64,000 bases of DNA from Paracoccaceae bacterium. Lineage in GTDB: Bacteria; Pseudomonadota; Alphaproteobacteria; Rhodobacterales; Rhodobacteraceae. The stretch covers positions 101,658-165,657 of the forward strand of contig WKFI01000002.1 in assembly GCA_014872875.1 (NCBI GenBank), in the 5' to 3' direction. The notes under the pieces were generated by a model. The model did not search any database and was not told the DNA's origin. It was given only the letters and a program-made list of their open reading frames with translations. The position numbers and the translations under genes are program-made. Below are positions 5,722-59,099 of the stretch, in pieces (the first letter of the stretch is position 1; each line of letters starts with the position of its first letter).

Positions 5722-5755
5722 AAACAATACCGTAAAACAGGGAGGACTACTCCGA

Positions 5756-43076: not shown

Positions 43077-43901
43077 TTGTTGGTTCTTGTTCGCAAGCCC
43101 GCAGGAGCATTGTTACGAAGCATCGCAACGGCAATTTTCGCCGTGGGTCTGCTTTCTACGTCTCCTCTTCCCACCGCTGCAAGTGTTGTGACCCCTCATG
43201 ATATGGCGTCGGATATCGCGTTCGACATCATCCTGACCGGGGATCCTTCCACCTATCGGTGCCTCTCAGATGAAGGGCACACGATACAGCAGATGTGGGA
43301 CAAACATGTGGGTCCGGAACTCGACTTGAACATATTCCAGTTCAAGGCCCATTTTTCAGACGGGCCTACCACATATGTATTTCTGAACCCTGAATTTGAA
43401 ACAGAAGACGCCGCTGGGGAAAAAGCCCTGCGTTACACTCGCGCATTGGGACAACTGCTTCCGGATTTCCGTCAGGGACTCCGGCAGGTCAGTGTTCATA
43501 AGGGCAAACCCACCTCCTCTGCCGGATCCGGAAAGATCTTTGTCTATTCCGACCGGACGACAATCCGCATCAAAGAAAACCACCTAAGGGAATCCCGCTT
43601 GCATGAATCCGTTCATGCGTCGTTGGACCGGCAATATCGCTTGTCCGGCGAATGGATTACTGCTCAGGGGGGAAACGATGCCCTTGTCACCAGACACGCT
43701 GCGTCCCGCCCCGAACGCAAGGATCAAGCGGAAACAGCGCTTTTTGCCCTTGCGATCATGTACCAACCGGACCGGATTCCCCCGGTTGATACACGGATGG
43801 CAAAGAAAATGATGCCGACACGGCTGACCGTGTCGGATCGCATTTTTAGCAACCCGGTTACCCTACCAATACACTCCGAACCTCCGGATAGGAGGCACTG
43901 A
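43077..43901 (+). CDS. Secreted putative zinc metallopeptidase (HEXXH)
   Basis: 274 aa, start TTG 43077 with GAGGGT upstream. The N-terminus has a signal-like hydrophobic stretch (SIATAIFAVGLLSTSPLP). At residues 176-180 the sequence is HESVH, inside RLHESVHASLDRQY, a zincin-like HEXXH. No clear third ligand was identified; the region after it (QGGNDALVTRH) may provide one. No named family recognised. It stands upstream of the 2OG-oxygenase-like gene and near the repeat-protein cluster, but any link to that is a guess. Confidence 0.6.
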   Translation: MLVLVRKPAGALLRSIATAIFAVGLLSTSPLPTAASVVTPHDMASDIAFDIILTGDPSTYRCLSDEGHTIQQMWDKHVGPELDLNIFQFKAHFSDGPTTYVFLNPEFETEDAAGEKALRYTRALGQLLPDFRQGLRQVSVHKGKPTSSAGSGKIFVYSDRTTIRIKENHLRESRLHESVHASLDRQYRLSGEWITAQGGNDALVTRHAASRPERKDQAETALFALAIMYQPDRIPPVDTRMAKKMMPTRLTVSDRIFSNPVTLPIHSEPPDRRH

Positions 43902-43979: not shown

Positions 43980-44660
43980 ATGACCAGAACCGTAGCCCAA
44001 ATCCCGTCTGAAGGGGGAACGGATGAACTGCGTCGCGACGACTACTTCCCGACGCTGGTCTTTTCGACAAAACTTCACGACGCAGAGGCGATGAACAACG
44101 AAATCCTCGCCGCCATCAATTCCGAGCGCGACCGCGATTCCAAAGGAATCGAAAGGTCGAATTTCCGGTCCCTGGGGGGGTGGCACAGCCACAACAACCT
44201 GCACAAGGACCCGGCCTTCGATAAGTTGACCAACCGAATCCATTCAATGCTGACCGGGGTGTCTGACAATCTTGGATATCACAAAGGTCGCCATCTGGAG
44301 GTGACCACCATGTGGTCGATTTCGAACCCTCCGGGCAGTTCAAACCGGGCGCACATCCATCCCGGCGCGCTGTGGTCAGGTGTGTACTACGTTCAGGCAC
44401 CCGAGGGCGCTGGTCAGATCGAGTTCATAGATCCCCGCACTGTCAATCTGATGAACTATGCCACCTATGTTCCAAACACGAAGCGTAAAACAGAATGCTG
44501 GACCAAAGTTAAGGTCAAGCCAGTGGCCGGCAAGATGCTGTTCTTCCCTAGCTGGCTCTATCATTCGGTGGAACCGAACCTGTCCACGGCCAAGGGCAAG
44601 GACGGTGAACGTGTGATCATCAGCTTCAACATCAACCAGCGGGTGAAGCCGAAGAAGTAA
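43980..44660 (+). CDS. Putative 2-oxoglutarate/Fe(II)-type oxygenase (TIGR02466 family)
   Basis: 226 aa. Family features: FPTLVFSTKL near the start, NFRSLGGWHSHNNLH, the iron-ligand region NRAHIHPGALWSGVYYVQ, GQIEFIDPR and the distal His in FPSWLYHSVEPN. Members are predicted double-stranded beta-helix dioxygenases with unknown substrates, common in marine bacteria and phages. A GGAGACTGAA lies before the ATG. It is convergent with the repeat-protein export operon and shares a terminator with it. Confidence 0.82.
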   Translation: MTRTVAQIPSEGGTDELRRDDYFPTLVFSTKLHDAEAMNNEILAAINSERDRDSKGIERSNFRSLGGWHSHNNLHKDPAFDKLTNRIHSMLTGVSDNLGYHKGRHLEVTTMWSISNPPGSSNRAHIHPGALWSGVYYVQAPEGAGQIEFIDPRTVNLMNYATYVPNTKRKTECWTKVKVKPVAGKMLFFPSWLYHSVEPNLSTAKGKDGERVIISFNINQRVKPKK

Positions 44661-44725: not shown

Positions 44726-45964
44726 TTATTTGGCTGTAAGCGCCATAAGGCGCCGGTTCAGGATCTGTGCCAACGCGACCGAGGATTTCGATATGGATAG
44801 CAACACGATGACCGGTGCCACCGAAAACAGTGAGGTCGCCACCAGTGAATCCGACATCGAAATCGACAGCTTCTGGAACCCCGCCGCAATAGGAAATGCA
44901 TAAGACGAAAAGATAATAACAAAGGCCACGGCCATGGAGATATCCTGGCTCAGCCTGAACTTGCCCTGTTTTTCGCGCACAGTGCCCAGCATCGCTACGT
45001 ACCGGCGCAATCGGTCTTTCAACACTTCCTTCTTGGCCTCACGCAGCGCCGGAGGTGACATGTCGTCATTCCCGGCGCGATAAGACAGGAAAGACTGCTC
45101 CAACCGGCTTTCCGACCGGTCAAATGCGGCGTTCAACACCCGCAGCGCCATAAGATCGCCAGTCATCAAGGTCACGATGATCACCGACACGATCACTCCA
45201 ATCACCACCAAAGGCGATATGAAATAGACAAAGCACAACAGCAGCAGGAACCCGAACAGCACCGCCTCTTCCTCGCGTTTGCGATCATGGTCCTGCAAAA
45301 TTGTCGTCATGGTCTTTAGCGTCAGCGGTTTATGTTCTGAAGCCCGGTATTCAAACTGGAACTGTTCGCGCATCCGGGTCAGCCCAACATCAGACAGGGT
45401 CTTGACCCGCGCTCGCAGACCGACCGCGATCATGCCCACGCAGACCGCCAGTGAAAACACCAGAGCAAAAGGTTCGACCGCATTGGATTCAACACCGGAC
45501 CGGACTGCATAGAAGAGGATGATGATCGACATGACCGCCAGAACCTTGGCCGTCAGACGGTACACCTTCATCTCGGACATCTCGGATTGCAGCAGGTTTC
45601 GCAGGCGTACCCCAAGGGCCTCTGGCGTTTCCACGTTGCTCAGCAGGATACCTCGCAATTCAATGATGGAGCAGGCCCGTCGCTGATCCGGCACAGGAAA
45701 GCGGGACACAGGCATCCACACGCCACGGATCGGATCCCAACGCGCCAACTCCCCTTGCCCCTTGTCCTGCCACAAACGCAGGGCATAGCTGGCCCGTGGG
45801 GCATTGGCAGGGTCTTGATCCACGGACCATTGGGCCGCCGTAATCGAACTGCCTTTGGGGTCGGTAAAGAACACATCTACCGGAAGCGATGCCAGTTCCG
45901 GCGGGGCCGCCGCCTCGCGATAGGGCCAGATATCGCCCAGAATGGGATAGATCTTCTGGCTCAT
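44726..45964 (-). CDS. ABC-exporter-like membrane protein without ATPase domain
   Basis: 412 aa. About 150 cytoplasmic residues come first, then about six hydrophobic segments (VLAVMSIIILFYAV, FALVFSLAVCVGMIAVGL, LFGFLLLLCFVYFISPLVVIG, VSVIIVTLMTG, ISMAVAFVIIFSSYAFPIAA, SLFSVAPVIVLLSI). Long charged helices between them resemble the arms of an ABC exporter. The chain ends right after the last helix: no Walker A, signature or Walker B. It overlaps the C39 gene by 4 bases (ATGA), so the two probably form a heterodimer that exports the repeat protein. How export is powered is unclear. Confidence 0.7.
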   Translation of the reverse strand: MSQKIYPILGDIWPYREAAAPPELASLPVDVFFTDPKGSSITAAQWSVDQDPANAPRASYALRLWQDKGQGELARWDPIRGVWMPVSRFPVPDQRRACSIIELRGILLSNVETPEALGVRLRNLLQSEMSEMKVYRLTAKVLAVMSIIILFYAVRSGVESNAVEPFALVFSLAVCVGMIAVGLRARVKTLSDVGLTRMREQFQFEYRASEHKPLTLKTMTTILQDHDRKREEEAVLFGFLLLLCFVYFISPLVVIGVIVSVIIVTLMTGDLMALRVLNAAFDRSESRLEQSFLSYRAGNDDMSPPALREAKKEVLKDRLRRYVAMLGTVREKQGKFRLSQDISMAVAFVIIFSSYAFPIAAGFQKLSISMSDSLVATSLFSVAPVIVLLSISKSSVALAQILNRRLMALTAK

Positions 45965-47772
45965 GCCGGTTCCCTCTCGACAACGGTCAGACGATTCATC
46001 GTCAGATGGCCCACCCGTGGCAGATGCGATCGATCCAAACGCTTGGCCAGACCCGGCACATCCATCTTGTTGCGCACATCCCAGAACACCGGAAAATCAC
46101 CGGGATCACAACTGAGCATGTCGCGCAATACCGGATCGTTAAGCGCCACGTCCATCAATTCGCGGTTCTTTTGCGGCACCGGCAGTGACATGTCCTCGGC
46201 CCGGGCTTCGCGCGCAATGATCAAATGTTCGAAATCCGCCTGGCTGGCCTGTTGGCCCGGACCAAAAATCCGCACGGGCCCGATTTCGGGTCGCTTGTCT
46301 TCTGGCAGGGTTTCAACTGTTTTTGACACCACTTCGGCCAGGATCATGCGCTGCTCTCGGACCGTCAGATCGGGCTGTTGCAGTGACATTGTCAGCGGTT
46401 TGATCCCTTCGACCCGGATCAGACGATCTGCCTGTGCGATTTTGAGATCCGGCTCGCCCAAGATGCGCTGGCGGCGCAACGGAACTTCGGATCCCGTCAG
46501 GCTGGGGACAGATTCACCAGTATTGAGCGCCGGTGCCAGCTGCATCGTCCGTTTGAAATCCAGTGGTACGATCTGCATGCCCGCCAGAATCCAGAACATC
46601 AGCGCCACCGCAGGAAGTGAGCCGTACAGCACGCTGAACCCGGCAAATCCAATAACGCTCCACTTCGCGACCTCACCGATCAATTCGGGGGCGGCAACGC
46701 CGTTGATCATGTCATGGCCATGGGTGAGCTTCGAGTAGCGCCCCGATGTGCCCAAAACGGATCGACGGCACACCTTGATCAAGTCCAGCTGGGTGATCAG
46801 AAGGGACAGACCGATCAGACCCACATGCAGAACCCCCAACAGCGGATGCAACAGGCACAGCGCCAGCGGCATGATGCAGATTGTGCCGAGCATCGCAGGA
46901 AGCTGCGCCTTTTGCGGAACGTTGTACGTCAGCCCACGCCGGACCGAGCCGGAGACGTCCCGTTCCATCCGCCCGCGGAAGCCATGCAGATCGCTTTCCT
47001 TGGCCGTGCTGCGCAATATACCACGCCACAGACGCGCTTGCTTGCGCCTGACCCAGTTGTCTTCGCCTTCAAACCGGATCTGCCGGGCCAGCAGCATCAG
47101 CCCGCCGCATGCAACGATCACAGTGGCCGCAACCAACATCGACGGAAAGCTGGCCTGGTTCAGGATCAGATACAAAACGGCCACCAGACACAATAACAAC
47201 GCACATTCCAAAAGGCGCGATGCCACACCCGTCAGGAAAAGACCGACTGGCTCCCATTTGAAACCGATCTTGGAATTGACGCGCGGTGGGGGTTGAACAA
47301 TGGCAGGAAGTTGCCCTTCGACAGCCTTTCCAGACACCTCAAGCGCCACCCCGGAGTACAATGCCTTGAAGTCGGCCATCGGGTAATACACCGCCCCTTC
47401 AGCCGGATCGTGCACCAGTATTCCGTTGCGCCCCAGTTTCAGCATTACAACGTAGTGCTTTTGGCTCATGTGCAGGATCACATGACCGTTGAGCTGTTTC
47501 AGATTGGCGGCCGGGGCCTTGAGCGCCCGCGCCCCGATCCCGTGGCGTTCGACAAAATACCGCCGCATCGCGTCCAGATTGCTGCCCTGACGATCGGGGT
47601 CCAGAACCTCCATCGCGTGAACGGGATCCGGTTTGCGGTTCAGCATGTTCAGGACCGTCAGAACCGATGCCACGCCACAGTCGCTGCGCGTTGTCTGCAT
47701 AACAACCTGCCCGCGGCGGCGGATCAGCGCCCGTATGGCAGCGGGCCAGAAGATCAGGTCAGATATCGGCAT
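45961..47772 (-). CDS. C39-peptidase membrane exporter subunit lacking an ATPase domain
   Basis: 603 aa. Residues 1-140 are a C39 double-glycine peptidase: Gln26, catalytic Cys32 (TTRSDCGVASVL), His106 (SQKHYVVMLKL) and Asp122 (VHDPAEG), all present in order. Then come about six hydrophobic helices (about 175-245 and 300-415). The last 180 residues should hold the ATP-binding domain of a PCAT transporter but have no Walker A, signature or Walker B; GPGQQ is the nearest thing. It should cut the double-glycine leader of the 919-residue repeat protein two genes upstream. It overlaps the HlyD-like gene by 14 bases. Confidence 0.82.
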   Translation of the reverse strand: MPISDLIFWPAAIRALIRRRGQVVMQTTRSDCGVASVLTVLNMLNRKPDPVHAMEVLDPDRQGSNLDAMRRYFVERHGIGARALKAPAANLKQLNGHVILHMSQKHYVVMLKLGRNGILVHDPAEGAVYYPMADFKALYSGVALEVSGKAVEGQLPAIVQPPPRVNSKIGFKWEPVGLFLTGVASRLLECALLLCLVAVLYLILNQASFPSMLVAATVIVACGGLMLLARQIRFEGEDNWVRRKQARLWRGILRSTAKESDLHGFRGRMERDVSGSVRRGLTYNVPQKAQLPAMLGTICIMPLALCLLHPLLGVLHVGLIGLSLLITQLDLIKVCRRSVLGTSGRYSKLTHGHDMINGVAAPELIGEVAKWSVIGFAGFSVLYGSLPAVALMFWILAGMQIVPLDFKRTMQLAPALNTGESVPSLTGSEVPLRRQRILGEPDLKIAQADRLIRVEGIKPLTMSLQQPDLTVREQRMILAEVVSKTVETLPEDKRPEIGPVRIFGPGQQASQADFEHLIIAREARAEDMSLPVPQKNRELMDVALNDPVLRDMLSCDPGDFPVFWDVRNKMDVPGLAKRLDRSHLPRVGHLTMNRLTVVEREPA

Positions 47773-49375
47773 CTTTGGCCAATAGGAAACTAAACAGGGA
47801 CTGACGCGCCAAGGGGAAACTCAGGTGAATGACGGCCCCAGGCAAGTGTTCGATCTTTTGGGCCGAGCTTTCGTCAACCCCGACGACAACCTGGCTCAGT
47901 ACGCCGCGTTTGATGATCTTCTGCGCGAGCGATTCATTTCCCAGCCGGATCCCCAATTCCTTGGTATCCACCGTGGCATAATCTCGGTCCAGCAACCGCG
48001 CGTCAAAAACGATTTCCGACCCGGACCGGGTATCACTGATCGAGCCTCGCACGTTCTGACCGGGGTTCAGAACAACTGCGTGACGGTTTTCAAGGAAACC
48101 GATGATTTCATTGCTGCTGCCGTCATGCCGGTCCCGGGCGATGGCGGCATGTGTCGTGATTGATGTCCGCACCATCACCGGCACGTTGCGGGCATCCTTG
48201 GCCAGCGCCTGGATGACCACCAACCGTCCTTCCGGGTCTTCTTCCAGTTCTGCAAAAACGGACAGGACCTGCATTTCCCCGACAGTTGCCCGGTCCGAAT
48301 ACAAATTTTGAACCTTCAACCCGCCCTGCTGCAACGCCTCAAGCATCTCGGTTTCGCTGCCGGTCAATCGGATCAGGGTCTCGGTGCCACCGACCGAAAG
48401 CACGACTTCGGCCCATTCTGCATCGCCAAAAACGGTCATTGAAATCCCGGCTGCGGGATCGCGTGTTGCCAACAGCCGCAGGGCGTCTCCCCGAGCTACA
48501 TCAGCGCGGTTTGCTTGCAACGTCCGCATGTCAACGGAATTGCCATCGGCCACAGCCAATTGCGGAAGTTTCGCTTTGGCGAGATATTTGGCTTCTGCTT
48601 CGGCCAAGGCGTTGATACGCAGGTTTTCCAGCTCCCGGTTGTGCTGTTCTAGGTTGGCGACCCGATCCTGCAGGATCTCGATTTCCGCACGATCGATATT
48701 GTTGGAATATGTCAGGTCATTCAGCTGCTTGACCATGTCCAACACCATTTTGTCGGTCGAATACCTGTTCCCCCGTGAAGTAATCACCGACAAGCGGTCG
48801 GTCTGGATGTCGTCCAGCATGCTCGCCAGCTTCTGAGCAGGCAGCGCGGACACCTCGCCCGAGCGCTTAACCAGTTCTTCCAGTTGCTGCAGCTGCTCCA
48901 TCCGCAAGGCGTTCAGCTCATCAATGTCGCTCACGCTTTCTGCGGTGAAGGCCTGAAGGGATGCCACGACTTCGGCGGTGTCGGCGGTCAATACCTCACG
49001 CGCGGCAAGACGGTCGGCCGTGGCTCTCTGCTTGGCCCTTTCTCGCTCCAGCTCAAGGTCGTTTTTCGATTTCTTTTCAATATGTTCCGCCTCAATCTTT
49101 GCCATTTCCTTGCGCATGACGCCTTCCTGCAAAGCGTTTTGCGCGACAGCATTTCCAAAGATCACGGCAGTCACGATTTCGCCTGGATGAAACCGGCCTG
49201 CCTCGGACGGGAAATGTAAGACCGTTCCAGCTTCGGAAGCCCTTATGGTCCGCACACCACCAGGGTTCACGACCAGCCCGAACCCATCAACTGCAAAGGA
49301 AATCGGAACAAAGAAAATGCCCAGTGTTGCCAGCAGCAACCCTATGGACACAGAGAAAAGTCTCATCAACAACAC
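47759..49375 (-). CDS. HlyD-like periplasmic adaptor (membrane fusion) protein
   Basis: 538 aa. One N-terminal membrane anchor (LFSVSIGLLLATLGIFFVP), then a lipoyl-like piece (IRASEAGTVLHFPSEAGRFHPGE), a long coiled coil of about 200 residues rich in Glu, Lys and Leu (about 85-290), and beta-rich C-terminal domains. The layout is that of adaptors joining inner-membrane exporters to an outer-membrane channel. No TolC-type protein is encoded here. It lies 196 bases downstream of the repeat protein, separated by a hairpin, and is coupled to the C39 gene. Confidence 0.8.
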   Translation of the reverse strand: MLLMRLFSVSIGLLLATLGIFFVPISFAVDGFGLVVNPGGVRTIRASEAGTVLHFPSEAGRFHPGEIVTAVIFGNAVAQNALQEGVMRKEMAKIEAEHIEKKSKNDLELERERAKQRATADRLAAREVLTADTAEVVASLQAFTAESVSDIDELNALRMEQLQQLEELVKRSGEVSALPAQKLASMLDDIQTDRLSVITSRGNRYSTDKMVLDMVKQLNDLTYSNNIDRAEIEILQDRVANLEQHNRELENLRINALAEAEAKYLAKAKLPQLAVADGNSVDMRTLQANRADVARGDALRLLATRDPAAGISMTVFGDAEWAEVVLSVGGTETLIRLTGSETEMLEALQQGGLKVQNLYSDRATVGEMQVLSVFAELEEDPEGRLVVIQALAKDARNVPVMVRTSITTHAAIARDRHDGSSNEIIGFLENRHAVVLNPGQNVRGSISDTRSGSEIVFDARLLDRDYATVDTKELGIRLGNESLAQKIIKRGVLSQVVVGVDESSAQKIEHLPGAVIHLSFPLARQSLFSFLLAKDADI

Positions 49376-49470
49376 CCCGATTTTCCAACAACTTTAACCT
49401 ATTGGAGTTCACAGTACCAATCAACTCCGGCAAACCTGACCCTTGAGCCGAGCCGTTGGGCTGCAAGGCG

Positions 49471-49500
49471 AAACCGGCACCTGTTTCCGGGCGCCGGTTT
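49471..49500 (-). promoter_or_regulatory. Hairpin between repeat-protein gene and export genes
   Basis: AAACCGGC and GCCGGTTT form a perfect 8-bp stem around 14 bases. On the minus strand only a TTTC follows, so it is a weak terminator or attenuator. It would allow the precursor to be made in excess over its exporter. Confidence 0.5.
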
Positions 49501-49571
49501 GCTTTGTTTCGAGGGAGGGCGATCACAAACCGCCCTGCCCGTTCAGGTCAACTTGACGTCACCATGTGGTC

Positions 49572-52331
49572 TCAGACACCGGAGTCCAGATCCAGGCCGG
49601 CGGCAAGATCCGCGCCGAACCCGTCGTCGCCCCCATCGCTGCCGGTTGCGCCGCCTGCATCGACTGCACAGGCATCCGCGCCACACGCGTCATCATCCGA
49701 GCCACCATCTGCGCCGCAGGCATATCCGCCACAGGAGCCATCGTCTCCGCGCGACACAGCTTCGTTGCCCTCGTTGCCCTCATTCCCTTCGTTGCCTTCA
49801 TTGCCTTCATCGCCCTCGTCATTCGGGGTGAACTCGTTTCCTTCGTTGCCTTCATCGACACCGAATTCATCGCCTTCGTTGCCTTCATTGCCTTCGTTGC
49901 CTTCGTTGCCTTCGTCGGCACCAGGCTCATCGCCTTCGTTGCCTTCATTGCCTTCGTTGCCTTCATTGCCCTCATCAAAGCCAGGCTCATCACCTTCGTT
50001 GCCTTCATTTCCTTCATTGCCTTCGTTGCCTTCATCAAGGCCGAACTCGTCGCCTTCGTTGCCTTCGTTGCCTTCGTTGCCTTCGTTGCCTTCGTCGTTC
50101 AGACCATTGCCAACTTCATTACCTTCATTGCCTTCATCGAAGCCGATTTCATTCCCTTCATTTCCTTCGTTGCCTTCATTGCCTTCATTCCCTTCATCAA
50201 GGCCGATTTCGTTGCCTTCATTCCCTTCGTTGCCTTCATCGCCTTCGTTGCCTTCGTCGGCACCGATTTCATTGCCTTCGTTCCCTTCATTGCCTTCGTT
50301 GCCTTCGTTGCCTTCGTCGGCACCGATTTCATTACCTTCATCACCCTCATTGCCTTCGTTGTCTTCATTACCCTCGTCATTAGGGGTAATTTCGTTGCCT
50401 TCGTTACCTTCGTCATTCGGGCTGTCGTCTACAGGGCCCTCGTCGCCTTCATTGCCTTCATCACCTTCGTTGCCCTCGTTACCTTCGTCGCCTTCGTTAC
50501 CTTCATCACCTTCGTTGAAGCCTACGAGGTCAGGATCCAAAGGTTCGTTACCTTCGTTGCCTTCATCTCCTTCGTTGAACTCGTCGCCTTCATTGCCTTC
50601 GTTGCCTTCGTCGCCTTCATCACCTTCATTCAGTTCATTGCCTTCATTGCCTTCGTCACCTTCGTTGAATTCGTCTCCTTCATCGCCTTCGTTGCCGTCC
50701 CCTACAGGTTCGTCGCCTTCATTGCCTTCGTTGCCTTCATTGCCTTCATTGCCTTCGTCACCTTCGTTGAACTCGTCCCCTTCATCCCCTTCGTTGCCCT
50801 GGCCTTCGTCGCCTTCGTCGTTTTCGTTCCCTTCGTTGCCTTCATTGCCTTCGTTGTCTTCGTCGCCTTCGTCTCCTTCGTCGTTTTCGTTGCCTTCGTT
50901 ATCTTCCTGGCCTTCATTGCCTTCGTCGTTTTCGTCGCCTTCGTTGGCTTCGTCGCCTTCGTCGCCTTCGTCGCCTTCGTTGGCCTCGTTATCTTCGTTG
51001 CCTTCGTTCCCTATGCTCTCATTGCCCTCGTTTCCTTCATTTCCTTCATTTCCTTCGTTCCCTTCATCCCCTTCGTCACCTTCGTTGAATTCATTGCCTT
51101 CATCGCCTTCATTGAATTCATCGCCTTCATCGCCTTCATTGGCTTCGTCGTTTTCATCGCCTTCGTCGCCTTCGTTGGCCTCGTTATCTTCGTTGCCTTC
51201 GTTCCCTATGCTCTCATTGCCCTCGTCTCCTTCATCGCCTTCGTTGTCTTCGTTGCCTTCGTTGAATTCATCGAAGATGAGGAATGGGAAAGTGTTATCC
51301 TCATTGCCTTCATTGTCTTCATCGCCTTCGTTGAATTCATTGCCTTCGTCGCCTTCGTTGCCTTCGTTTCCTTCATTGTCTTCGTCGCCTTCGTCGCCCT
51401 CATTGCCTTCCTGATTAAAGATGTCGGTTTCATCGCCTTCGTTGCCTTCGTTGGCCTCATCGCCTTCGTTGCCTTCATCGCCTTCGTCGCCTTCGTTGCC
51501 TTCGTCGTTTTCGTTGCCTTCGTCGCCTTCAAATCCTTCGTTGTTTTCGTCACCTTCGTCGCCTTCGTTGCCTTCATTGCCTTCGTTGTCTTCGTCGCCT
51601 TCGTCGCCCTCATTGCCTTCCTGATTAAAGATGTCGGTTTCGTCGCCCTCATTGCCTTCATTGGCTTCGTCGCCTTCATTGCCTTCGTTGCCTTCATTGC
51701 CTTCGTTGCCTTCGTCGCCTTCGTCGAATTCATTGCCTTCGTTGTTTTCGTTGCCTTCGTCACCTTCGTTGAATTCGTCGCCTTCATCGCCTTCGTTGCC
51801 CTGGCCTTCGTTGCCTTCGTCACCTTCGTTGCCTTCGTTGCCTTCGTTGCCTTCGTTGTCCTCGTCGCCTTCGTCGCCTTCGTCGTTTTCGTTACCTTCG
51901 TTGTCTTCGTCGCCTTCGTCACCTTCATCACCTTCAAAGAACTCGTCGCCTTCGTTGCCTTCGTTACCTTCGTTGCCTTCGTTATCTTCGTCGCCTTCGT
52001 TGCCTTCGTCGTTTTCGTTGTTTTCGTTGTCTTCGTCGAATTCGTTGCCTTCGTTACCTTCATTGCCTTCGTCGTCTTCGTCGCCTTCGTTGCCTTCGTT
52101 GCCTTCATTGCCTTCGTTGGCTTCGTTGCCTTCGTTGCCTTCGTCGTCTTCGTTGCCTTCGTTGCCTTCGTCACCTTCATTGCCCGAGTTTTCGTTCTGA
52201 GCCGGGTCGGGCACCGGCATACCTCCAAGAATGGCCAGAGCATCGTCCGTGCTCAGGTCGGCCAAGTCTTCGATTTCAGGTGTGCTGTTCAGATCAAAAA
52301 TTCTTGCGCGCAGCGTTTCAAAAATAGTCAT
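49572..52331 (-). CDS. Giant Gly-Asn/Asp-Glu repeat protein with double-glycine leader (RiPP-like precursor)
   Basis: 919 aa in three parts. The leader (1-37) starts MTIFETLRARIFDL and ends LSTDDALAILGG, which fits the double-glycine leader consensus LSxxELxxIxGG; cleavage is expected after Gly37. Residues about 50-857 are a tripeptide array, G-N-E or G-D-E, with occasional A, F, D, P or I in the Gly place and a few short breaks (DETDIFNQEG, TFPFLIFDEF, EPLDPDLVG). Residues 858-919 form a Gly/Asp/Ala tail with four Cys at 867, 872, 883 and 888 (two CX4C pairs). After the leader there is no Lys or His and one Arg, so the mature chain carries several hundred negative charges. Ribosome site GGAG lies 11 bases upstream. 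Neighbouring rSAM, C39 and HlyD genes point to modification, cutting and export. Function unknown. Confidence 0.85.
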   Translation of the reverse strand: MTIFETLRARIFDLNSTPEIEDLADLSTDDALAILGGMPVPDPAQNENSGNEGDEGNEGNEDDEGNEGNEANEGNEGNEGNEGDEDDEGNEGNEGNEFDEDNENNENDEGNEGDEDNEGNEGNEGNEGDEFFEGDEGDEGDEDNEGNENDEGDEGDEDNEGNEGNEGNEGDEGNEGQGNEGDEGDEFNEGDEGNENNEGNEFDEGDEGNEGNEGNEGNEGDEANEGNEGDETDIFNQEGNEGDEGDEDNEGNEGNEGDEGDENNEGFEGDEGNENDEGNEGDEGDEGNEGDEANEGNEGDETDIFNQEGNEGDEGDEDNEGNEGNEGDEGNEFNEGDEDNEGNEDNTFPFLIFDEFNEGNEDNEGDEGDEGNESIGNEGNEDNEANEGDEGDENDEANEGDEGDEFNEGDEGNEFNEGDEGDEGNEGNEGNEGNEGNESIGNEGNEDNEANEGDEGDEGDEANEGDENDEGNEGQEDNEGNENDEGDEGDEDNEGNEGNEGNENDEGDEGQGNEGDEGDEFNEGDEGNEGNEGNEGNEGDEPVGDGNEGDEGDEFNEGDEGNEGNELNEGDEGDEGNEGNEGDEFNEGDEGNEGNEPLDPDLVGFNEGDEGNEGDEGNEGNEGDEGNEGDEGPVDDSPNDEGNEGNEITPNDEGNEDNEGNEGDEGNEIGADEGNEGNEGNEGNEGNEIGADEGNEGDEGNEGNEGNEIGLDEGNEGNEGNEGNEGNEIGFDEGNEGNEVGNGLNDEGNEGNEGNEGNEGDEFGLDEGNEGNEGNEGNEGDEPGFDEGNEGNEGNEGNEGDEPGADEGNEGNEGNEGNEGDEFGVDEGNEGNEFTPNDEGDEGNEGNEGNEGNEGNEAVSRGDDGSCGGYACGADGGSDDDACGADACAVDAGGATGSDGGDDGFGADLAAGLDLDSGV
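49761..52184 (-). repeat. Nonanucleotide coding repeat (GNE/GDE array) with higher-order units
   Basis: On the plus strand the unit is TTCGTTGCC and close variants (ATTGCC, GTCGCC), 9 bases per Gly-Asn/Asp-Glu triplet, for about 2.4 kb. At 49861-50340 a strict 60-bp (20-residue) period appears: punctuating sequences at 49861, 49921, 49981, 50041 and at 50143, 50203, 50263, 50323. Two longer duplications are visible: CTGATTAAAGATGTCGG at 51411 and 51621 (210 bp apart) and CCCTATGCTCTCATTGCC near 51011 and 51206 (195 bp apart). All spacings are multiples of three, as expected for an expanding coding array. Confidence 0.95.
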
Positions 52332-52826
52332 CGTGTCTGTCTCCAGTCAGGTCCGAAGATCGGGCTTCGGATTGTTTTACTCGGGCGATCAGAACGCCCA
52401 AGGTTTGGGTTCAACGATCAATCAAACCGTTGCAGATGCAGGCCATCGGAGTTTTTTGGAGAAACCTTGGAACCAACATCTGAAGTCTGGCAAGAAAGTA
52501 GCGGAACCGAAGTACCGCCTTTTCCACGGATGAAATCGGGAAAATGCCCTGCTCGAAAAAACATCGTGGTAACTGGGATCGGGACGGGCAAATCAAATCG
52601 TCCCTTAACGTCCGTAACTGCGCAAAGCCGCAAAGCTTTGAACAGCACGTTTTCGATCCTTTGGACCGATGTTGCGAATGCGGTCTTCATACCTTTCGGC
52701 ACGCCTTCGCTCCCTGTCTTACCAATACCCATTTCACATTCACTTCCAATAGTGTCCGGACCGCGTTTGGCGCGGCCATTCCAGCGGGGCAATTACCCCT
52801 TGTCGGGAAGTGTCGGGCGGATGACC
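52332..52826. other. Region between rSAM gene and repeat-protein gene (long leader/promoter)
   Basis: 495 bases, long for a gap within an operon. A minus-strand frame (52792-52418, 124 codons) is open but unlike any protein I know. The right half likely holds a separate promoter for the abundant precursor. Two hairpins close to the precursor start are listed separately. Confidence 0.45.
52352..52399 (-). promoter_or_regulatory. Tandem hairpins in the 5' leader of the repeat-protein gene
   Basis: TCCGAAG/CTTCGGA (7-bp stem, 52352-52371) and GGGCG/CGCCC (5-bp stem, 52383-52399), 11 bases apart and 20-70 bases before the ATG at 52331. They would lie in the mRNA leader, where they could stabilise the message or control translation. 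No T run follows, so they are not terminators. Confidence 0.45.
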
Positions 52827-54320
52827 TTAGGACGGCATGTCCTGCAGTGCATCGTGGACCGCTCCTACGGAAGCAAGCGTGTGCCTGTTTCCTGTGAGCA
52901 TTCCATCACCCTTGACCGTGGGGCTGTTTTTCTGATCCCAGTCGTCATCGCTGACGAACCCACGTGTTTTCGCACGCAGAAACAGCTGCTCGGCCATATT
53001 AAACTTGAGGCTCGGGCACGGCAGTTTGCCGGTTTCGCCCGAAGCGTAATCATTGTGTACAAATTTGAAGGCACAGGCCCCTGCACAAGCTGGAACCAGC
53101 TGACAGTTGCTGCACACTTCGTTCTCGAAAGGAGACCAGGCATTCCACATCGCCTCGGTCCGGCCATCAGACTTGCGCGTGCCGCCGAAAACCGATCCGA
53201 CACGCAATTTGGGATCCATCACTGTGTCCCAGCATTTGTGCAGATCACCATTCGGCACCACGACATAAGAATTAGGTTTGACCGCCGTGCACAACCCCAG
53301 ATGACGTGGGACCTTGGGCATACCTATCAGGCCTTTCTCGAAGGCCAACAGGTGAAGGCGGTTTTCTAGATCGGCATAATCCGTTTTTGGAAGACAGCTG
53401 GTGCATCCGTCGGCGGCTTCGGCCACACTTTCGACGGGTGCAAAATACACCGATACACCGTTGCGTATTCCCAACTTGTTGCGTTCCAGAATATCCAGCA
53501 ACGCACGGGCCTGATCTTCGTTCTGACCATCTATGTTGACCCGGATCGAAACCTTCAAAAGCCCGCGTTCAGTCACGGCCTTGATATTGTCCAAAATTCT
53601 CTGGAACGTGCCACGCCCGCTGGTCAGATGACGGCGGCTGTCATGCATCTCTTCGTCGCCATCGATGGTGATCTGCACCTTGCCGACGCGTGCCTTCTTG
53701 AGTTTTTCCGCTACGGGCACCGACATCTTGTACCCGTTGGAAATCATCATGGACGTGTATTTGATACCGTTGTCGTCGCAATACTTGATTGCAGCAGCGG
53801 AGATGTCCCAAATCGCTTCCTGGTCCATCAGAGGTTCCCCACCATACCAGGTCAGGTGGAAGCTGCGGCGCCCGCGCAGGTGTTGTAACAGGTAGTCCTT
53901 GGTTGCCTCGCGCACTTTCGGCGTCATCTTGGTCAAGGGCTTGTCCAGCCCCTGGAAGCAATAGTGGCACCCGAAGTTGCAGGAAAGCGTCGGCGCGATG
54001 GTCATCATCATGTGCCCATCATTGTGGCGGGCCCGATCATAGTTCCGGCGTACTGTACGGAATTCGTCTTCGGCCGCGTTTACGACGAACCCTCCTTGAA
54101 CAAAGGTTCGGTACGCGGCTCCAAATGGCAGATCTCCAGCCTTGTCCAGATCGTCCCACAACTGTCCGTCGGCCTTGTCCCAAACGGCAAAGGCTTGCGA
54201 GACTGTATTGTAGGCCAGCTTTCGGTCGTTCTTCAGCGGCACCAAGATCGTGTAGTTGGACGGCTTGATCCGTGTCCGGGCGTCCTGCCCGCTTTCAGAC
54301 TGGAACTGACCATCAGGCAT
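52827..54320 (-). CDS. Radical SAM/SPASM peptide maturase
   Basis: 497 aa from ATG 54320 (MPDGQFQSESGQD), with GGGAG upstream; 28 more codons are open but lie in the CPBP-like gene. Residues about 18-100 form the N-terminal domain usual in RiPP maturases (SNYTILVPLKNDRKLAYNTV, FVQGGFVV). The AdoMet [4Fe-4S] motif is CNFGCHYC (Cys114, 118, 121), followed by WYGGEPL. The C-terminal SPASM region has LGLC, DLHKC, VCSNCQLVPACAGAC and LPC, enough Cys for two auxiliary clusters. It should modify the repeat protein encoded next, perhaps at its Cys tail or on Asn/Asp side chains. The reaction cannot be told from sequence. Confidence 0.9.
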   Translation of the reverse strand: MPDGQFQSESGQDARTRIKPSNYTILVPLKNDRKLAYNTVSQAFAVWDKADGQLWDDLDKAGDLPFGAAYRTFVQGGFVVNAAEDEFRTVRRNYDRARHNDGHMMMTIAPTLSCNFGCHYCFQGLDKPLTKMTPKVREATKDYLLQHLRGRRSFHLTWYGGEPLMDQEAIWDISAAAIKYCDDNGIKYTSMMISNGYKMSVPVAEKLKKARVGKVQITIDGDEEMHDSRRHLTSGRGTFQRILDNIKAVTERGLLKVSIRVNIDGQNEDQARALLDILERNKLGIRNGVSVYFAPVESVAEAADGCTSCLPKTDYADLENRLHLLAFEKGLIGMPKVPRHLGLCTAVKPNSYVVVPNGDLHKCWDTVMDPKLRVGSVFGGTRKSDGRTEAMWNAWSPFENEVCSNCQLVPACAGACAFKFVHNDYASGETGKLPCPSLKFNMAEQLFLRAKTRGFVSDDDWDQKNSPTVKGDGMLTGNRHTLASVGAVHDALQDMPS

Positions 54321-55041
54321 AGACAAACTCCCGTTCTCGCTGGCCGAACAGATAGTAGAGCACCAACGAAACCAAACCCGCATAACCCAGGAAATAGGCT
54401 GCATAGGTCATCTGGGTCTCTCCGGTCACTCCAATCGTCATCAGCTGGCTCCAAAACAGTGTATTGGCAGCACTGACCAGCGCAACCAACAGGATGTTCA
54501 TTCCAATCAAGCGAAGGGACATGAAAAACAGTCCGCATCCTACGGCGATCATCGCTTCGGCAAAGCCGTGCGGAAGGAACATTGTGAAATAAGCCAGGGA
54601 AGATGCCAGCACCCCGACCGAAACGGCTCCACCAAAGGCCTTCAAAGCCGTCTCCCGAAAGAAAAGCTCATAGGCAAAGGCCATATACAGTGCCTGAACC
54701 ACCGTGCTTTGAGTAAGAAAAGCGGTTCCGAAATCTCGGAAATTGATCTGAATCAAGGAAACGCCATAGAGAATTGGCCCGACCAACAGCAGCGGAGCCA
54801 AGAACAGGCCAAGAACAGACCGCCCCCAGCTCCACTTCAGAGTTGGTTCTCCGTACAGGCTTTCCTTGGGTTGTCGCAACAGGGAAACGACATCACCGCG
54901 CAGCAGCAACACGGACGCGCCCATTAAAACAGCAGTGGTCATTCCGCTTATTTCAGAAGGGTTTAGCCCAAAAACGCCATGCCTTAGGGTTTCTGCCAGC
55001 GCGACAAACAGGAAGAAAGTCACGGCAAACATAATATGCAT
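54313..55041 (-). CDS. CPBP-like (CAAX protease-related) membrane protein
   Basis: 242 aa, about seven hydrophobic helices. The centre has AFAYELFFRE (Glu125, Arg129), like the EExxxR of CPBP intramembrane proteases but with Tyr for the first Glu, then LPHGFAE with a His (158) that fits the second motif only loosely. The enzyme may therefore be degenerate or act as a chaperone. It opens the rSAM operon and overlaps the rSAM gene by 8 bases. CPBP proteins are frequent in peptide-maturation loci. Start: ATG 55041 is 3 bases after GGGAGGAG; ATG 55032 (MFAVTFF) has better spacing. Confidence 0.65.
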   Translation of the reverse strand: MHIMFAVTFFLFVALAETLRHGVFGLNPSEISGMTTAVLMGASVLLLRGDVVSLLRQPKESLYGEPTLKWSWGRSVLGLFLAPLLLVGPILYGVSLIQINFRDFGTAFLTQSTVVQALYMAFAYELFFRETALKAFGGAVSVGVLASSLAYFTMFLPHGFAEAMIAVGCGLFFMSLRLIGMNILLVALVSAANTLFWSQLMTIGVTGETQMTYAAYFLGYAGLVSLVLYYLFGQREREFVYA

Positions 55042-55495: not shown

Positions 55496-56362
55496 ATGGA
55501 CTACCATACGCCCGCGAGTTTTGAGGACGCAGTCGCACTGGCCCAAGAAGCAACGGGGATCACCCGTTTTCTGGCCGGTGGGACTGATGTTCTGGTTCAA
55601 CTCCGCGCAGACATCGTCACGCCTGATACGTTGATCGACATCAAGAAAATTCCCGGAGCATCTGAAATCAAAAGGGAAAGTGATGGCGGTTGGACAATTG
55701 GCATCGCCGTTCCCGGCGCCGAGATGAAGGAACATGCCGAGCTGAGCTCGGACTGGCCCGGCGTGGTTGAGGCAATGGATCTGATCGGTTCGACACAAGT
55801 TCAGGGTCGCGCCACTTTGGTAGGGAACCTGTGCAATGCGTCTCCGGCTGCGGATTCTGTTCCGGCTATGGTCGCTGCTGGCATCACGCTCTCAGTAACT
55901 GGTCCGAATGGAACCCGCTCGGTTGCGGCCGAAGATGTCCCGGTTGCCCCTGGACGGACATCGTTGGACAAGGGCGAATTGATTTCCGCCGTTCACATCC
56001 CTGCACGTGGCGAGAATGCGGGTGATGCCTACTTGCGCTTTATCCCACGTACGGAAATGGACATCGCGGTAGTGGGCTGCGGCGTCAGCCTCCGTCTGAA
56101 TGGCGACACCATCATCGAAGCCCGCGTTTCGCTGGGCGCCGTTGCACCAACCGTCCTGCTGGTCGAGGACTGCGCGAACGCCATTATTGGCACCGCTTTG
56201 GATGATGCAGCATTGGAGAAACTGGCCGAAGCAGCCTCGGCTGCATGCAACCCGATCACTGACAAGCGCGGCACTGTCAAATTCCGAACGCACGTGGCGG
56301 GTGTTCTGGCCAAGCGCACTGCCAAGATCGCCTATGAACGCGCCAAAGGAGCGACGAAATGA
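55496..56362 (+). CDS. Molybdenum hydroxylase FAD-binding (medium) subunit, CoxM-like
   Basis: 288 aa. FAD loops are visible: FLAGGTDVLVQLRAD near residue 25 and QGRATLVGNLCNASPAADS near residue 103. The C-terminal CO-dehydrogenase flavoprotein domain follows (ISAVHIPARGEN, RTEMDIAVVGCGVSLRL). It passes electrons from the Fe-S subunit to an acceptor. Order is M-S-L, with 4-base overlap to the next gene, as in xanthine-dehydrogenase-like operons. Confidence 0.9.
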   Translation: MDYHTPASFEDAVALAQEATGITRFLAGGTDVLVQLRADIVTPDTLIDIKKIPGASEIKRESDGGWTIGIAVPGAEMKEHAELSSDWPGVVEAMDLIGSTQVQGRATLVGNLCNASPAADSVPAMVAAGITLSVTGPNGTRSVAAEDVPVAPGRTSLDKGELISAVHIPARGENAGDAYLRFIPRTEMDIAVVGCGVSLRLNGDTIIEARVSLGAVAPTVLLVEDCANAIIGTALDDAALEKLAEAASAACNPITDKRGTVKFRTHVAGVLAKRTAKIAYERAKGATK

Positions 56363-56838
56363 GCAAGATCCATGTTGCGACCAAAATCAACGGCGATACG
56401 GTCGAATACCTTTGCGATCCTCGCGAAACCCTGCTGGACGTGCTGCGGGATCGATTGAATTTGACCGGTGCCAAGGAAGGCTGCGGCACCGGTGATTGCG
56501 GTGCCTGTTCCGTTACACTGGACGGCCGCCTTGTCTGTTCATGCCTGGTTCTGGGAGCCGAAGCGGACGGGAAGGAAGTTGCTACCGTCGAAGGCATCGC
56601 GGACGGGGACGAGCTGCATCCGCTGCAGAAGAAATTCATTGAATACGCAGCCCTGCAATGCGGCGTCTGCACTCCGGGCATTCTGGTTGCTGCCAAATCG
56701 CTTCTGGAGAAGAACCCCGAGCCGACCGAAGAAGAAACCCGGTACTGGCTCGCAGGCAACCTGTGCCGCTGCACCGGATACGACAAGATCATTCGCGCCG
56801 TGCTGGATACGGCAGCTGAAATGCGGGAGGCCTCGTAA
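56359..56838 (+). CDS. Molybdenum hydroxylase [2Fe-2S] (small) subunit, CoxS-like
   Basis: 159 aa. Plant-type ferredoxin cluster: GCGTGDCGACSV plus LVCSC. Second, helical cluster domain: LQCGVCTPGILV and LCRCTGYDKI. It carries electrons from the molybdenum site to FAD. It overlaps both neighbours (4 bases, 1 base). Confidence 0.95.
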   Translation: MSKIHVATKINGDTVEYLCDPRETLLDVLRDRLNLTGAKEGCGTGDCGACSVTLDGRLVCSCLVLGAEADGKEVATVEGIADGDELHPLQKKFIEYAALQCGVCTPGILVAAKSLLEKNPEPTEEETRYWLAGNLCRCTGYDKIIRAVLDTAAEMREAS

Positions 56839-59099
56839 TGGCTTTGGACGATCAGAAATCCACTTTGAAATTCGTGGGAACCCGGCCTGAACGCCCCGAC
56901 GGGCTGGACAAGGTCACTGGCCGCGCCCGGTTTGGCGCTGATACCACGGCCCCCGGCATGTTGTTTGGCGCAATCGTCAGGTCTCCGCACGCCCATGCGC
57001 GGATCGTCAAAATCGACGTGTCCAAGGCCGAGGCCATGGAAGAGGTCAAGGCGGTCGTAACCCGTGCCGATTTCGTCAACGACCTGGAATACACACCCGG
57101 TGGCGCGGATGAGTTCTGGAATGTGATGGAAAACGTCATGGCCGGCGACACCGCGCTGTATGACGGCCACGCCATTGCGGCGGTGGCCGCGACCTCTGCG
57201 CTGGCGGCGCGTGACGCGGTCAAGGCGATCGAAGTCGAATACGAAGTGCTGCCGCATGTGACGGATGTCGACAAGGCGATGGCCTCCGACGCGCCGGTGA
57301 TCCGTGAAGGTGCGGCTGACCATTCGGTCCCGGACGGGCTTCACCCCAACGTGGTTCGCTATCACGAAAGTGGTCATGGAGATGTCGAGGCGGGTTTTGC
57401 CGAGGCCGATCTAGTCATCGAGGACCATTTCACCACAGAGGCTACACACCAGGGCTATATCGAACCCCATGCGTGTCTTGCCAGCCTTGGCATGGACGGC
57501 AAGGGCGAGCTGTGGTGCTGCACCCAAGGCCATTGGTACGTGCAGAAATACTGTGCGGCCCTTCTGGGCATCGATACCTCGCAACTGCGGGTTACCGCTT
57601 CCGAGATTGGTGGCGGCTTTGGTGGAAAAACCACGGTGTTCATCGAGCCGGTCGCCCTTGCGCTGAGCCGAAAGGCCAACCGCCCGGTCAAGCTGGTGAT
57701 GAACCGGTCCGAAGTGTTCCGCGCAACGGGGCCTACGGCCTCGGCTTCGATGGACATCAAGATCGGCATGAAGAAGGATGGAACCATCACGGCCGCCGAA
57801 GGCACCTTCCGCCTTCAGGGTGGCGCTTTCCCCGGTGCACCCTGTGAATTCACCGCAATGTGCGCATTCGCCCCTTATGCGCTGACCAATGTGCGTCAGG
57901 TCGGGTATGACGTGATCACCAATCGTCCGAAACAGGCGGCCTACCGGGCTCCGGGATCGCCAATGGCAGCGTTTGCGGTTGAATCGGTGATTGATGAGCT
58001 GTGCAACCAGCTGGGTCTTGACCCTGTTGACGTACGCCTGAAGAACGCGTCGCGCGAAGGAACCAAGGCTTCTTATGGTCCGCGCTTTGACCGGATCGGA
58101 CTGGTAGAAACGCTGGAGGCCGCCAAGGCTCATCCGCATTACTCCGCTCCGCTGGAAAAGGGTCAAGGCCGCGGAATTTCCTGCGGGTTCTGGTTCAACC
58201 ATGGTGGGGAAACCTCGGTCTCGCTGGCCCTGTCCGAAGACGGCACCGCCCAAATTTCGGTTGGCACTCCGGATATCGGCGGGTCGCGCTCTTCGATGGC
58301 ACTGATGGCTGCCGAGGTGTTGGGTATCGCCTATGAAAACATCCGGGTGACCATCGCAGATACCGCGACACTTGGGTACAATGATGTCAGCCATGGCAGC
58401 CGGGTGACTTATGCCTCGGGTCTGGCAACGATCAAGGCGGCCGAGGATGCAGTGCAGAAGCTTTGCAAGCGTGCAGCTCAGAAATGGGGTATCCCCGAAG
58501 ATGCTGTAAAATGGGAAGACGGTCATGCGGTTCCGTCAGGACCCAATGCAGGCGATTTCGATCCCCTGCCGCTGCGCGAAATCACGGCAACAATGGGTTC
58601 GACTGGCGGTCCGATTTCGGGCCATTTCGAGGCCACGCCCGAAGGCGCTGGCGTGTCCTTTGCAACCCATATCGTGGATTCCGAAGTTGACCCGGAAACC
58701 GGCAAGACTGCTGTGACCCGTTACACGGTGATCCAGGATGCCGGCAAGGCGGTACACCCGACATATGTCGAAGGCCAGTTCCAGGGCGGTGCGGCGCAAG
58801 GCATTGGCTGGGCGCTGAACGAGGAATACATCTATGGGGACGATGGCCGGTTGCAGAATGCGGTCTTCCTGGATTATCGCATTCCGGTGGCGTCTGATCT
58901 GCCGATGATCGACACGGTGATCGTCGAGGTTCCGAACCCTGGCCACCCGTTTGGCGTGCGGGGCGTCGGCGAAACCTCGATCTGTCCGCCTCTCGCCGCA
59001 ATCGCAAACGCTGTATCCGCCGCAGCTGGTGTGCGGATGAGATCGCTACCGATGTCTCCGCCCAAGATTCTGGACGCGCTCGATCAGGCCGATGGCTAA
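56838..59099 (+). CDS. Molybdenum hydroxylase molybdopterin-binding (large) subunit
   Basis: 753 aa. Family blocks: RARFGADTTAPGMLFGAIVR, GGGFGGKTTVF, the active-site loop AYRAPGSPMAAFAVES near residue 370, and RGVGETSICPP with the catalytic Glu near the C-terminus. The loop is neither AYxCSFR of true CO dehydrogenase nor AYRGAGR of form II CoxL, so this is not a CO dehydrogenase. It hydroxylates an unknown, probably aromatic, heterocyclic or aldehyde, substrate. It overlaps the MoaD-like gene by 8 bases. Confidence 0.9.
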   Translation: MALDDQKSTLKFVGTRPERPDGLDKVTGRARFGADTTAPGMLFGAIVRSPHAHARIVKIDVSKAEAMEEVKAVVTRADFVNDLEYTPGGADEFWNVMENVMAGDTALYDGHAIAAVAATSALAARDAVKAIEVEYEVLPHVTDVDKAMASDAPVIREGAADHSVPDGLHPNVVRYHESGHGDVEAGFAEADLVIEDHFTTEATHQGYIEPHACLASLGMDGKGELWCCTQGHWYVQKYCAALLGIDTSQLRVTASEIGGGFGGKTTVFIEPVALALSRKANRPVKLVMNRSEVFRATGPTASASMDIKIGMKKDGTITAAEGTFRLQGGAFPGAPCEFTAMCAFAPYALTNVRQVGYDVITNRPKQAAYRAPGSPMAAFAVESVIDELCNQLGLDPVDVRLKNASREGTKASYGPRFDRIGLVETLEAAKAHPHYSAPLEKGQGRGISCGFWFNHGGETSVSLALSEDGTAQISVGTPDIGGSRSSMALMAAEVLGIAYENIRVTIADTATLGYNDVSHGSRVTYASGLATIKAAEDAVQKLCKRAAQKWGIPEDAVKWEDGHAVPSGPNAGDFDPLPLREITATMGSTGGPISGHFEATPEGAGVSFATHIVDSEVDPETGKTAVTRYTVIQDAGKAVHPTYVEGQFQGGAAQGIGWALNEEYIYGDDGRLQNAVFLDYRIPVASDLPMIDTVIVEVPNPGHPFGVRGVGETSICPPLAAIANAVSAAAGVRMRSLPMSPPKILDALDQADG

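Follow-up and report, generated by a model that had tools for sequence, protein, structure and literature searches.

We analyzed a 64,000-nucleotide window of contig WKFI01000002.1 from a Paracoccaceae bacterium, in which an operon encodes a giant, strongly acidic repeat protein together with its predicted maturation enzymes and a putative export apparatus. A first reading of this DNA (the original prediction) had claimed six minus-strand genes in a given order between positions 44726 and 55041, and an open reading frame listing places all six there: a CPBP-like membrane protein (54313 to 55041), a radical SAM/SPASM enzyme (52827 to 54404), the repeat precursor (49572 to 52331), a HlyD-like adaptor (47759 to 49375), a C39 peptidase membrane protein (45961 to 47772), and a partner membrane protein (44726 to 45964). 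The span reported at that time left out the usual partner of the repeat array, a TIGR02466 2-oxoglutarate (2OG)-Fe(II) oxygenase encoded on the plus strand at 43980 to 44660, and the account of the locus omitted a C-terminal Cys tag with three CxxD motifs.

Giant [x][N/D]E precursors

The precursor has the length of 919 amino acids (aa) and the double-glycine (GG) leader that had been claimed for it, with the GG at residues 36 and 37. The leader comprises residues 1 to 37 (LSTDDALAILGG; 52221 to 52331, minus strand like all features of the precursor), and residues 50 to 857 (49761 to 52184) form an array of [x][N/D]E triplets. We counted 241 triplets spanning 89% of the array, rather than the roughly 270 first proposed. 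Short hydrophobic islands (TDIFNQE, FPFLIFDE, and FTPNDE) lie within the array and also occur in other genera. The protein closes with the Cys tag (CGGYACGADGG...DACGADACAVDAGG; 49650 to 49733), the predicted target of the radical SAM enzyme, and a conserved C-terminal end, GADLxxGLDxDxGV (49575 to 49616). A cut after the GG would leave a computed product of 882 aa and 91 kDa, with 376 Asp plus Glu residues versus a single Lys or Arg.

The precursor is one of at least four giant [x][N/D]E proteins in its genome that share a GG leader type and a C-terminal tag, and three of the four lie on other contigs; the extent first claimed for the locus holds for its six genes and misses these three unlinked precursors. 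A profile of the tag (A1) gave at least 16 matches at E ≤ 1e-10, confined to six of 394 genomes, all with the operon; the best 15 candidates per genome were scored, and more matches may exist. All six tag-bearing genomes also carry the radical SAM and C39 genes, in agreement with the proposed logic of a ribosomally synthesized and posttranslationally modified peptide (RiPP) system around a giant polyanion. Ten of the 16 matches are distant from the operon or on a different contig, and the idea that a precursor must adjoin the operon was rejected, as the G264 operon (L032) has none beside it and two elsewhere.

Fifteen of the 16 matches were analyzed, leaving out the cis copy of G118, which is frame-broken with 7 triplets. 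These precursors contain 122 to 712 triplets, and their whole stop-to-stop frames carry net charges of -194 to -1301. All 14 with an intact 5' end (that of the G118 C37 precursor is missing at a contig edge) have a GG leader with hydrophobic positions, and their computed sizes after a GG cut are 58 to 257 kDa. Genome G007 has four tag-bearing precursors, the longest measuring 2465 codons from stop to stop. A further 287 genomes gave weak tag matches (E of 5e-5 to 0.01), which were dropped; the one read looked dehydrogenase-like. The C-terminal tag gave no match in a protein search, though many in genome searches; the protein search therefore seems blind to these low-complexity proteins.

Precursor loci vary in architecture. 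The operon of G138 contains a tandem pair of giant precursors (L033, 11523 to 18105), and that of G118 has a duplicated oxygenase gene as well as its shrunken, frame-broken cis precursor (L030, 7480 to 8200 and 12949 to 14387). A domain of about 150 aa precedes the GG leader in three precursors and is free-standing in G116 (L066, 12295 to 12840; L069, 13685 to 14224; L075; L031, 7517 to 8035). Two of the three fused copies and the free-standing copy were searched, and none matched a Pfam or NCBIfam family above cut-off.

Constraint on the array and its oxygenase partner

We compared 18 arrays, those of the 15 tag-bearing precursors and three further ones, by anchoring them on Glu. The residue preceding Glu is Asn or Asp in 93 to 99% of cases, whereas the residue one earlier is Gly in just 41 to 89%, depending on the array, and is otherwise replaced by N, D, A, S, F, or Y. 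In alignments of orthologous arrays from two genera, which are low-complexity and biased towards matching, Glu is conserved at 409 of 411 and 215 of 222 sites, and Asn or Asp as a class at 406 of 411 and 216 of 222. Asn and Asp are swapped at 20 to 29% of these sites (49 to 50% would be expected if they were independent), Gly is lost at 12 to 20%, and codon third positions differ most. Because Glu and Asn/Asp are kept while codons vary, we take the constraint to be [N/D]E at each third residue. Among 15 arrays, 11 show near-random synonymous codon use between adjacent identical triplets; the codons are more alike than after shuffling in the cis copies of G007 and G116 and less alike in both G264 arrays.

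The array matches Pfam Collagen at 99.5 bits, above the gathering cut-off of 27.2. Since the constraint falls on [N/D]E and not on Gly, which fails the test of occurring at every third residue, we regard this as a match of composition. Automatic annotation will probably label these array proteins collagen-like.

The oxygenase scores 192.1 bits against TIGR02466 (cut-off 62.5) and is a predicted Asn/Asp hydroxylase. Residues H125, H127, H195, and R211, which we take to be ligands of its active site, are invariant in 15 sequences. Each of the eight genomes that have the operon, whether intact or decayed, carries the gene. Outside operon genomes, it was found at E ≤ 1e-60 in just 2 of 59 sampled, and in both it adjoins a giant [x][N/D]E protein (1041 and 1065 aa). 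Those two loci contain an ATP-binding cassette (ABC) and HlyD pair with Walker A present and a homolog of the HExxH protein P9 (see below); radical SAM, C39, and Cys tag were not found in the 17 kb read. A wider sample yielded the oxygenase at E ≤ 1e-45 in 18 of 365 genomes, of which 12 carry an array (G000, G007, G116, G118, G138, G264, G035, G048, G292, G335, G112, and G181; the G335 array is about 7.5 kb from the oxygenase). An array query matched 0 of 10 oxygenase-negative genomes, a small, hand-chosen control, and found the positive control. For a related oxygenase on a Pseudooceanicola plasmid (45% identical), an incomplete gene table annotates neither an array-like gene nor a type I exporter in the 10 kb around it.

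Judged by gene neighborhoods, then, arrays usually occur with the oxygenase whichever of two export machines is present; this pairing is the most interesting new point of the analysis, and by inference the oxygenase would hydroxylate the repeated Asn/Asp residues. Arrays near type I exporters without radical SAM or C39 genes suggest that the array is a separate module. Homologs without such neighbors had been named in advance as evidence against the original prediction; they exist in part, as these type I loci, alongside the tag-bearing genomes that keep both genes. With this pairing, the chemistry also becomes open to direct tests on short peptides. A third array architecture is seen in G335 (L124), where a small Gly/Ser-rich GNE protein (3123 to 3314) lies beside a large one with DLDGDG-type acidic segments (4207 to 6795), with ABC and HlyD-like genes downstream of the array genes.

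P9, encoded next to the oxygenase (43077 to 43901, plus strand), has by eye an N-terminal signal sequence and is a possible metallopeptidase that might trim the product outside the cell. It is associated less tightly, in 6 of 61 genomes at E ≤ 1e-10, and no array was present in the stretches read around distant homologs in G000 C25, G007 C9, G042, and G043. In the type I exporter version of G048, a second protein that by eye is of HExxH type (HEFGH) lies beside the array gene (L100, 7259 to 7978).

The Cys tag, its probable maturase, and the predicted export proteins

Three Cys residues with Asp at +3 are found in all 15 tags, accounting for 45 of the 55 tail Cys. The radical SAM enzyme likely starts near 54320, at a conserved MPDG. 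Its CxxxCxxC and SPASM cysteines are invariant in eight aligned sequences, as expected for the claimed maturase, and it matches the whole TIGR04463 model at 475.8 bits, under the cut-off of 525; it is a close TIGR04463 relative, not a formal member. The PapB family profile also matches (104.5 bits). PapB forms Cys-Asp thioethers and accepts Cys-Xn-Asp with n = 0 to 6 (PMC9413430). TIGR04463 matches at E ≤ 1e-60 occur in 4 of 299 genomes of the phylum, its own included.

Two distant relatives of the enzyme (G831 and G947; 35 to 39% identical) adjoin Cys-rich proteins without arrays. The G831 neighbor is a 344-aa protein with a leader-like LSDDQLEAVAGG and with ACGADACAGAACGV, and that of G947 (L083, 10879 to 12477) is a LysM protein with 44 Cys and 24 CxxD motifs. 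Because two of three distant relatives have such neighbors, and because the Cys tag rather than the array resembles them, we reassign the radical SAM target, which on this comparison is most likely the Cys tail. The Cys spacings of the G947 protein alternate, mostly 7 and 9 to 10, making it a candidate multi-thioether protein. In G831, an outer membrane efflux protein gene and the Cys-rich GG-leader precursor both adjoin the radical SAM gene (L082, 566 to 3839); this locus is possibly an array-free ancestor of the system.

The C39 protein comprises a C39 peptidase domain (Pfam, 74.8 bits; cut-off 22), an ABC-exporter membrane fold, and a C-terminal region without Walker A. The Cys, His, and Asp described as intact are indeed so: Gln26, Cys32, His106, and Asp122 are invariant in 37 aligned orthologs, and this domain is predicted, and likely, to cleave the precursors after the GG. 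The partner protein was claimed to be an ABC-type membrane protein; it has a predicted ABC-exporter membrane fold (residues 112 to 411), lacks the nucleotide-binding motif, and ends where the nucleotide-binding domain would start. Each of its 89 relatives is at least 41% identical, its own genome gave the only match in a class-wide sample (1 of 385), and it has no plasmid match. Walker A is absent from 78 of 80 C39 proteins and all 89 partners, while all 21 control C39-ABC transporters have it; the two pattern matches in C39 proteins, at residue 538, are not an equivalent site. The C39/partner pair has predicted ABC-exporter folds without an ATP-binding motif, second looks by VIA-align leaving room for other folds. 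Membership in FapD was rejected (35.6 bits versus a cut-off of 330).

The two remaining operon proteins fit their first assignments less well. The HlyD-like protein, 59 to 67% identical in six relatives, matches no Pfam family at E ≤ 1 and gives no convincing HlyD profile match (hhalign probability of 2.3 to type I HlyDs), so that it is an adaptor by position only. The CPBP-like protein has a weak Pfam match of 16.1 bits, below the cut-off of 22.4, and the Glu pair and second-motif His are not conserved in five aligned sequences, EExxxR and FxxxH being presumably the motifs of CPBP (Rce1-like) intramembrane peptidases. For five operon proteins, PHROGs yielded nothing beyond radical SAM and ABC-transporter matches of a generic kind and weak, unnamed ones.

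Relatives of the C39 protein over most of its length occur in 7 of 394 genomes of the same family, its own included; the G229 copy is split over two frames, and G224 retains pieces of the gene in a decayed operon. In a large protein set, of which the best 7992 candidates were scored, about 80 of the 102 proteins found are orthologs. Those with names come mainly from Rhodobacterales (Sedimentitalea, Tateyamaria, Arenibacterium, Seohaeicola, and Pukyongiella). A record of Microbulbifer sp. S227A (P0031), outside Rhodobacterales, holds an ortholog at 57% identity, indicating transfer or a mislabeled record. Just past the operon, on the other strand (55496 to 59099), lie what by eye are molybdenum hydroxylase-like genes for three subunits of the CO/xanthine dehydrogenase type.

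Proposed pathway, alternatives, and known systems

The system is real and conserved, and no curated family searched describes the whole; its parts are related to known families, several failing the membership test. The reading we favor, at a probability of roughly 57%, is that a dispersed system hydroxylates these precursors, cross-links their tails, trims them by C39 cleavage, and exports them. The [x][N/D]E proteins would be made with leaders; the neighboring oxygenase would hydroxylate the repeated Asn/Asp, as prolyl hydroxylase acts on collagen; the radical SAM enzyme would cross-link the Cys-x-x-Asp motifs of the tag; and the C39 protease would cut after the double glycine. Export would proceed through the ATPase-less ABC-fold pair and the HlyD-like protein, using a borrowed ATPase or none. 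The product, 91 kDa here, might then be a polyanion, secreted or retained at the surface, with a role in binding calcium or other metals or in building a matrix, the thioether-knotted tail perhaps serving as anchor or stopper, the least certain step. Our confidence in a calcium- or metal-binding surface or matrix function is low. A broader view is tentative and, in our estimate, probably wrong in at least some part: that "acid collagen" is a new class of secreted biopolymer with hundreds of [x][N/D]E units, hydroxylated by 2OG oxygenases, served by two or more interchangeable exporters, capped in one lineage by a radical SAM-made Cys-Asp thioether knot, and forming a calcium- or metal-binding extracellular matrix.

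Several observations weigh against the favored reading. The missing Walker A motifs leave export unexplained. The radical SAM score falls short of its family cut-off, the third relative (G751) has no recognized Cys-rich neighbor in the stretch read, and three control genomes that also matched the radical SAM search were left out of the neighborhood comparison; the N-terminal domain of the G831 protein is only weakly like the domain fused to three precursors (11.4 bits). In G264 the oxygenase adjoins a P9 gene and is separated from the operon by about 117 kb, and two of the oxygenase-linked arrays are short (17 triplets in G112 and 7 in G181). No array is seen near the oxygenase in 6 of the 18 oxygenase genomes: a contig edge lies at or near the site in G129 and G229, the operon of G224 is decayed, and the surroundings hold no array out to about 9 kb in G077, G321, and G326. 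A stop interrupts the oxygenase frame in both G229 and G321. TIGR02466 proteins are far more widespread, with 26 plasmid records, 17 from Streptomyces, and we know of no substrates for them.

The radical SAM enzyme could instead modify hundreds of sites in the array, with the oxygenase merely a chromosomal neighbor. Its gene is directly upstream of the operon precursor and the array makes up most of the substrate, but the Cys-rich, array-free neighbors of two related genes, the arrays found beside the oxygenase with no radical SAM gene nearby, and the co-occurrence of tag and operon make this improbable. We find it equally doubtful that the tag is a conventional small RiPP core, acting as a signal or bacteriocin, with the array as its expendable carrier or spacer. 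In favor are the strong conservation of the tag, its resemblance to array-free proteins encoded next to related radical SAM genes, and a cis copy that is down to 7 triplets; that copy is frame-broken, however, arrays of 122 to 712 triplets retain the [N/D]E pattern between genera, and arrays also exist without any tag. The absence of Walker A from both halves of the C39/partner pair would suit a cytosolic polyanion, with the pair acting as a membrane processing or sensing device. This is unlikely, though worth keeping in view, given that a GG leader and C39 domain usually signify export and that three array-only relatives adjoin type I ABC genes with Walker A present and HlyD genes.

A collagen-like adhesin forming a triple helix would account for the Pfam match and for below-cut-off matches to NCBIfam collagen-like adhesins. 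A triple helix requires Gly at each third residue, and the 41 to 89% occupancy seen two residues before Glu rules the adhesin out by this rule; we hold it very improbable. Neutral slippage expansion or an assembly artifact, suggested by the low-complexity 9-bp repeat and by the codon sharing in the G007 and G116 cis arrays, is scarcely credible and is already contradicted: codon choice is near random in 11 of 15 arrays and more diverse in two, Glu is kept between genera while third positions vary, and arrays lie on four contigs of one genome and recur in independent genomes, as the original prediction implied.

If the favored reading is correct, bacteria encode a polyanionic protein polymer and finish it with enzymes; its only Pfam match, Collagen, fails the Gly rule, and no curated family searched describes it. 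RiPP-style maturation would extend from short peptides to proteins of 58 to 257 kDa, the widespread TIGR02466 family would gain a substrate, and the question would arise how an ABC-type pair without ATP sites exports a chain bearing hundreds of negative charges. Such a polymer could also offer a designable calcium- or metal-binding material. Among open-licence PMC papers, searched by title and the start of the abstract, we found no description of such a system and none on TIGR04463; TIGR02466 appears there in a cyanophage context only.

The closest parallels in maturation are the TIGR04463 ("rSAM_vs_C_rich") and ranthipeptide (PapB and CteB) systems, which likewise combine a SPASM maturase, a leader, and a Cys substrate with C-x-x-D. 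Unlike them, the present system has only 3 to 4 Cys, at the end of an acidic repeat frame of 670 to 2465 codons, and one operon would serve several unlinked precursors. Of the thioether from Cys to a non-alpha carbon that marks a ranthipeptide product, the sequences show the CxxD motifs only. Collagen is a tripeptide repeat served by a dedicated 2OG-Fe(II) oxygenase, prolyl 4-hydroxylase, and the tripeptide repeat described here also has, by prediction, a dedicated oxygenase of this type; it differs in that the strict part is [N/D]E and not Gly, proline is scarce, and the chain is strongly acidic. Another acidic Gly tripeptide repeat is the Gly-Xaa-Asn repeat of nacrein and N66 of the pearl oyster shell; both proteins bind calcium, and longer repeats have been related to stronger Ca2+ interaction (PMC6599672). 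Those proteins are eukaryotic and fused to carbonic anhydrase, and there is no evidence of common descent with the array.

In export, the system departs from PCAT1, ComA, and CvaB and from type I secretion in having no Walker A and in having a second half-transporter-like partner that stops after the membrane domain. The Fap system offers the nearest likeness, a C39 protease without ABC ATPase alongside a repetitive protein: FapD is such a protease and is required for secreting that protein (PMC5557850). FapD is periplasmic with a Sec signal, whereas here the C39 domain is fused to an ABC-type membrane domain.

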